A stretch of DNA of 52,490 bases from a bacterium (GTDB taxonomy: Bacteria; Patescibacteriota; Minisyncoccia; Phycocordibacterales; JAKAEA01), in contig JAJYGQ010000020.1 in the NCBI GenBank assembly GCA_021785065.1, positions 1 to 52,490 of the forward strand. Reading direction: 5' to 3'. A program made the translations under genes and the position numbers. The notes beneath the pieces were generated by a model. It saw only the letters and a program-made list of their open reading frames with translations, made no database searches and was not told the DNA's origin. Below are positions 46,197-47,180 of this stretch, in pieces; positions within the stretch are counted from its first letter, which is position 1, and the number at the start of each line of letters is the position of its first letter.

Positions 46197-46706
46197 TTAC
46201 TTTTTCTCAATGACGACGATAAGACCCTTTGGCCCTTTTTTAGGCGCTTCGGCGATCTTATATTCTTCGCTGATGAGGTGCAGTACGCGCTCCATTCGTT
46301 CCTTGAGGAAGTTGAAGTCCATGTACTTAGACCGGCCAATTAAAAAGAGCTCAATCTTGACCCGATGGCCTTCGCGAAGCCATTCTGAGGCTTTTCTGGC
46401 CTTAAGATCAAGGTCGTGCTCGCCAGTACCGATTTTGACCTGGATATTCTTAGTTTCCGTGGTCTTACTTTTGGCTTTAGCGGCTCGCTCTTTCTTGCTT
46501 TCAGCGTACAGAAATTTACCATATTCCATCAATTTTGCAATAGGTGGCACAGTATTGGGAGAAATTTCAATTAAATCAACGCCTCGCTCCTCGGCAAGCT
46601 TGAGTGCGTCCGAAAGTGGCATTACTCCAATATTTCCCTCATCGCCGATAACCCGGATTTCCGGGGCGATGATTTGATGGTTGATGCGTGTGCGAGGTTT
46701 AGGCAG
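46197..46706 (-). CDS. infC: Translation initiation factor IF-3, likely CTG start
   Basis: The first ATG (46622) would lose the N terminus. In frame upstream the sequence continues as PKPRTRINHQIIAPEIRVIG and DEGNIGV, the conserved IF-3 opening, up to a TAG. No ATG, GTG or TTG occurs between that stop and RIN. CTG at 46706 is the only near-standard start in this stretch. It is directly preceded by ACTACT, the element found before other translation genes. The 169-residue product then matches the family in length and domains (YGKFLYAESKKE, IGTGEHDLDLKARKASEWLREGHRVKI). E. coli infC uses AUU, which allows IF-3 to repress its own start; the same control is likely here. Confidence 0.9.
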   Translation of the reverse strand: MPKPRTRINHQIIAPEIRVIGDEGNIGVMPLSDALKLAEERGVDLIEISPNTVPPIAKLMEYGKFLYAESKKERAAKAKSKTTETKNIQVKIGTGEHDLDLKARKASEWLREGHRVKIELFLIGRSKYMDFNFLKERMERVLHLISEEYKIAEAPKKGPKGLIVVIEKK

Positions 46707-46795
46707 AGTAGTGAAAAATGATTGCTAAATTAGCGTCGGAATTGTGTGCTAGGATAATAGGACTATACCATAAGAGGGTTTACTACTCAATAATG

Positions 46796-47180
46796 TGGTG
46801 GAGATGGGCGGAATCGAACCGCCGTGCAGGAGGGATTCAAAAGATGATTCTACGATGTGTAGCTGCTTTTAAAAGTTTAGGCTAAGCGGATAAGAAAGAA
46901 GCAAAATTTCCAAAAAGCCGAGTCGCTTACATTCGGCGGGCCGCGCGACGCTGGCTAGCTATAGTCCGGAAATGAGCATCGACTACCAGCGGACGGACGC
47001 CGCTGGCGCGATGTCGCTTAGGCCGTAGCGTAAGCGAATGCAGGAGCGCCCTTAAAGTAAGGGGAGGCTACGCTGCCAAGTGCTGTAGTGGCACTTAAAA
47101 GTTTGTGTCGGATTTAGGAGCGGACACCGCTCCACATCGCTCATCAAGTGAACAAACTCCTGTCTAGGCCGATCATCCCC
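46796..47180 (-). ncRNA. ssrA: Transfer-messenger RNA (tmRNA)
   Basis: The 3' end reads GGTTCGATTCCGCCCATCTCCACCA in part (T arm, then CATCTCC-ACCA); the 5' GGGGATG pairs with CATCTCC with one G-T. CCA is encoded. Pseudoknot 1 is clear: GAGCG/CGCTC and GTGTC/GACAC interleaved near 47107-47136. Twelve bases after it a 24-codon frame (47092-47018) begins with GCC and ends in TAA: the tag starts ATTALGSV and ends PAFAYATA. It ends in -ATA instead of the usual -LAA. tmRNA rescues stalled ribosomes and tags the chain for proteolysis. smpB lies just upstream on the same strand. Confidence 0.96.

Follow-up and report, generated by a model that had tools for sequence, protein, structure and literature searches.

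The infC gene, which encodes translation initiation factor IF3, is the textbook case of a gene with a weak start codon repressed by its own product. CUG has reportedly been tested directly against IF3, by Sacerdot and by Sussman, both in 1996. In E. coli infC starts at AUU and in Streptomyces at AUC, and IF3 represses starts other than AUG, GUG and UUG, including that of its own gene (PMC5472188); the S. aureus gene starts at AUA (PMC13009471). For E. coli IF3, the codons that escape discrimination are AUG, GUG and UUG (PMC4611024). The factor also inhibits leaderless mRNAs in E. coli (PMC9031893), as well as re-initiation without an upstream Shine–Dalgarno (SD) sequence, even at AUG (PMC2268962). 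CUG starts are very rare: among 36 genome groups, one of 2,468 UUG starts had switched to CUG, a frequency of 4e-4 (PMC5622118). The published weak-start infC cases that we found all use SD pairing or come from organisms that possess it.

Here we describe an infC gene in a 52,490-nt stretch of DNA from a bacterium with a small genome, analysed at its full length and called the window below. It resembles E. coli infC in having a start other than AUG, GUG or UUG, in the gene order infC-rpmI-rplT and in the N and C domains of its product. It differs in that the codon is CUG and not AUU, that SD and anti-SD are absent and that a tmRNA gene lies directly upstream; autoregulation is established for the E. 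coli gene. A non-canonical start, thought to permit self-regulation, is also found in infC of S. aureus (AUA, PMC13009471) and Streptomyces (AUC, PMC5472188), but both codons differ from the one found here, and the extended SD that the S. aureus site needs cannot operate in this genome. Streptomyces sigR, which has a GTC start and is repressed by IF3 (PMC5472188), shares the weak start codon, which in sigR sets a low, IF3-responsive level; it is not an autoregulatory gene, and its codon differs. An infC gene with an atypical start is thus known, and what is new is the CTG, the SD-free setting and the Patescibacteria lineage.

Results

The gene lies on the minus strand, where the ORF listing gives an open frame at 46724..46197 that reads QSFFTTLPKPRTRINHQIIAPEIRVIGDEGNIGVMPLSD.... 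Profile searches identify the product as IF3, with PF05198 at E 1.4e-27 and PF00707 at E 2.4e-12; the N and C domains both exceed the curated cut-offs, and TIGR00168 scores 145 bits against a cut-off of 60. Residues 6-143, counted from the CTG, align with E. coli IF3 from its residue 13, and the alignment begins at TRIN. Downstream on the same strand follow rpmI (L35; 46000..46188, from the ORF listing and relatives) and rplT (L20; 45642..45986, with ACTACT directly before its start), both with ATG starts; these are the neighbors by which an IF3 locus is recognized.

An in-frame TAG (46725..46727, minus strand), also present in the same-genus genome G002, closes the infC frame upstream. The first in-frame ATG (46620..46622, minus strand) comes 28 codons into the protein. 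It sits within the IF3 N domain and is not the start, which agrees with the initial annotation in placing the conserved N terminus upstream of the first ATG. That annotation had also reported an open frame free of ATG, GTG and TTG up to the TAG, and our reading from TAG 46727-46725 to ATG 46622 likewise finds none of the three in frame. The only near-cognate codon sensibly placed between the two is the CTG whose first base is 46706. This CTG (46704..46706, minus strand) is the sole candidate start common to the family; the only plausible start of infC is CTG 46706-46704, and we regard it as almost certainly the one used. From it, the coding sequence (46197..46706, minus strand, stop codon included, matching PF05198, PF00707 and TIGR00168) specifies 169 residues. 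As proposed at the outset, this is the right length for IF3, and ACTACT abuts the codon at 46712-46707.

We compared infC in five genomes of the family: the genome of the window (G000), G002 of the same genus, G004, G001 and G003. At the equivalent position the codon is CTG in four (G000, G002, G004 and G001) and TTG in G003, and in all five it sits 7-8 codons upstream of a conserved TRIN or IRIN. The four CTG-bearing genomes span the genus itself (two genomes) and two other genera, and over its whole infC frame none of them offers a standard start codon. The TAG at codon -7 is kept in G002, and in G004 and G001 a TAA lies a few codons before the CTG. Nucleotide identity between G000 and G002 is 28% at -160 to -30 and 83% from -24 onward. 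Codons +1 to +27 of this pair carry 10 synonymous and three non-synonymous differences (hand count), and in the gene as a whole there are 54 codons with synonymous and five with non-synonymous differences. The synonymous bias in codons +1 to +27, together with the low identity at -160 to -30, argues that the region before the first ATG is translated. Given such translation and the TAG at codon -7 common to both members of the genus, the CTG remains as the start.

These comparisons bear on three other accounts of the start. A shortened IF3 from ATG 46622, the first standard start codon in frame, is very improbable, because it would lose the first 28 residues, including the conserved stretch, alignable with IF3 of E. 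coli and Thermus, with which the N domain begins; the codons before this ATG are under purifying selection and the relatives start upstream of it. The peptide segment at issue is RINHQIIAPEIR. We give just as little credence to a start supplied by another upstream codon or by readthrough of the TAG, since that stop is kept in G002, a TAA takes its place in G004 and G001, and no other candidate codon is shared. The window comes from a draft assembly of 20 contigs, but independent genomes from both the genus and the family carry this start codon too, so that a miscalled base or a misassembly there can be practically dismissed. A resequenced genome with an ATG or another start had been named as evidence against the CTG; G002 matches a separately deposited assembly, JAKAEA010000001.1, and has CTG at the equivalent place, which excludes a base error.

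We then surveyed infC starts across Patescibacteria, taking one infC per genome from 64 genomes of the order and 76 of the rest of the class. Each gene was assigned the standard start nearest the expected place, or else a near-cognate codon, which leaves a few calls arguable: L271 has CAT CTG at the expected place, yet was scored as TTG further upstream. The order has TTG in 45 genes, GTG in seven, CTG in six, ATG in five and one unassigned; the rest of the class has TTG in 21, ATG in 13, CTG and ATC in 12 each, ATT in nine, ATA in five, GTG in two and two unassigned. The control genes at the same loci start with ATG in 127 of 130 cases for rpmI and in all 65 for rplT (infC versus rpmI, Fisher p about 3e-52, a statistic that ignores relatedness). 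The notion that the atypical-start logic of IF3 is preserved therefore stands as far as ATG avoidance is concerned, which is class-wide in infC, unlike in rpmI and rplT; self-repression by IF3 would be a further, plausible step. CTG, ATC, ATT and ATA together account for about a third of infC genes in the class. We also judged by eye 27 genomes from elsewhere in the phylum, in classes other than this one: about half have no standard infC start and use ATT, ATC or ATA there, and none requires CTG. On a tree of 139 IF3 proteins, the distinction between CTG and other codons takes 12 changes, at least seven of them forced by well-supported branches, so that CTG is a recurrent state in the class. 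As to direction, we infer from these sequences that CTG was derived from ATH or TTG starts.

The initial annotation had taken the genome to lack SD sequences, and both sides of the pairing agree with this. The 3' tail of its 16S rRNA is GTGGAACATTTCAAGG instead of GTGGATCACCTCC; the 3' end reads ...GCTCGTGGAACATTTCAAGG, and that of relatives in other orders ...GTGGATCACCTCC. AGGAG occurs within 22 nt upstream of the start in only four of 317 genes, so that SD-led initiation, defined by CCUCC at the 16S 3' end together with upstream SD motifs, is not what the genome displays. The anti-SD pattern is found in none of 60 order genomes, 42 of which contain the upstream 16S anchor, and CCTCC is absent from all 30 order 16S tails that were read. 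In the class the anti-SD pattern occurs in 32 of 112 genomes sampled, of which G171 looks like a chance match and G172 is placed in the order. From these sequences nearly the whole order seems to be without the anti-SD CCUCC, G172 having matched the pattern. The 16S of the genome itself corresponds to L115 3060-3125, and the order loci to L286-L315; in the order 3' ends, GGAA(T/C)A(T/A)TTCAA replaces CCUCC, often followed by an A/T-rich palindrome (TTCAAATTGAA). A simple link in the class between loss of the anti-SD and the infC start codon was considered and rejected, as non-standard starts occur both with and without an anti-SD. Even class genomes with an intact anti-SD (e.g. L150, L243, L254 and L265) have an infC that shows neither a standard start nor an obvious SD.

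The context of the CTG is that of other starts in the genome. We counted contexts in 332 genes with starts backed by comparison with G002. ACTACT, which lies directly before the infC CTG at 46707..46712 (minus strand), directly precedes the ATG of six of the 332 other genes, rplT and others in the window included (0.16 expected), and 36 of the 332 have ACT immediately before their start codon (six expected). Scored with a position matrix built from 316 starts, the 20 nt upstream of the CTG rank above 90% of real starts and, of the 765 internal CTG codons, above 96%. The matrix holds little signal per position, chiefly T at -1, and the score is therefore support for the CTG and not proof. It is possible, judging from these counts, that ACT or ACTACT acts as a substitute initiation element in this SD-free genome.

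Upstream of infC we find a probable extended -10 box (TGG-TATAGT; 46762..46767, minus strand, from the sequence and a -10 scan) and, 17 nt before it and read by eye, a possible -35 box TTGAGT (46785..46790, minus strand). The predicted -10 box ends 55 nt before the CTG, giving a predicted leader of about 50 nt (roughly 48 nt from the box), in which no RNA structure is detected (z 0.24). A leaderless infC mRNA was rejected here on account of this distance. Across the order, a -10 box 3-11 nt before the infC start is found in nine of 55 loci against 17% expected from shuffled sequence, which is no excess. At four infC loci of other families (L087, L089, L101 and L123) a TATAAT -10 box ends 4-9 nt before the TTG or ATG, and these sequences suggest that their mRNAs may be leaderless, a UUG start among them; E. 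coli ribosomes hardly use leaderless UUG starts. In both members of the genus, the gene immediately upstream of infC is that for tmRNA (ssrA; 46796..47180 in the window, minus strand as infC). ARAGORN finds no tmRNA beside infC in 32 other loci of the order, but about half of the loci scanned elsewhere in the class have a tmRNA at most 3 kb from infC.

Discussion

The sequences show where infC starts, that this place is conserved, that ATG is avoided there and that the anti-SD is missing; on them we build a proposal in which we infer weak initiation and feedback. Taken as a whole, a CUG-initiated, SD-free and weakly translated infC with probable feedback by IF3 is the account that we favor with reasonable confidence. 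The ordinary initiator tRNA would start infC at CUG 46706, yielding the 169-residue IF3, and initiation would proceed without an SD helix at a CUG that lies in a leader of about 50 nt free of RNA structure and has ACT, this genome's own start context, immediately before it. As CUG is a weak start, synthesis of IF3 would be low. Since IF3 destabilizes initiation complexes on codons besides AUG, GUG and UUG in E. coli and Streptomyces, its own CUG is probably repressed by it as well, which would hold the amount of IF3 steady. The codons used where a standard start is absent are those known or expected to be sensitive to IF3 (PMC5472188; AUA of S. aureus infC), and by analogy with the described systems we think self-repression at the CUG somewhat more probable than its absence.

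Feedback need not be part of the explanation. The CTG could instead be a fixed start of low efficiency that sets a low dose of IF3, TTG and CTG being interchangeable; we consider this a serious but less probable reading. In its favor, 45 of the 64 infC genes in the order start with TTG, more than with any other codon, this codon is insensitive to IF3 in E. coli, and G003 has TTG where the other family members have CTG. Because TTG is canonical to E. coli IF3, it may be weak initiation that is conserved and not sensitivity of the codon to IF3. Against it, a low dose would not call for starts anywhere near as rare and weak as CTG, ATC, ATT and ATA (UUG-to-CUG switches, 4e-4, PMC5622118), yet they make up about a third of infC genes in the class. 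The avoidance of ATG in infC hints that the cell needs IF3 synthesis to be weak or self-limiting. By analogy with its effects in E. coli, the range of starts against which IF3 discriminates may well be wider where ribosomes do not pair with an SD; if so, as a conjecture, UUG might become sensitive too.

A weak start that is kept, with CUG recurring, on ribosomes without an anti-SD separates the start-codon check of IF3 from recruitment by the SD. We tentatively suggest, giving it rather less than even chances, that IF3 homeostasis in a lineage that has lost the anti-SD depends on nothing but start-codon discrimination, acting on an SD-free leader: infC would have moved repeatedly among ATH, TTG and CTG, ACTACT would mark the start, and codon and context alone would set IF3-sensitive initiation.

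Because automatic annotation seeks ATG, GTG or TTG, infC is expected to be shortened or misplaced in many Patescibacteria. Such starts are rare within the genome, where comparison assigns ATG to 262, GTG to 29 and TTG to 26 of 317 genes. Among 363 ORF pairs conserved between this genome and G002, infC alone of the clearly identified protein genes has, in both members of the pair, a conserved N terminus before the first ATG, GTG or TTG. Most other high-scoring pairs were discarded, being either conserved sequence preceding an ATG or spurious ORFs from the rRNA part of contig C10. An ORF on another contig of the genome (C19:40794-41346, plus strand) has a conserved signal-peptide-like N terminus (VYYH..SRII..LLLSTTLA) before its first ATG, GTG or TTG in both members of the genus. 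From its sequence we would guess at a secreted, transglycosylase-like product, and the gene may have a second non-standard start, with ATT and ATA as candidates, or a decayed N terminus.
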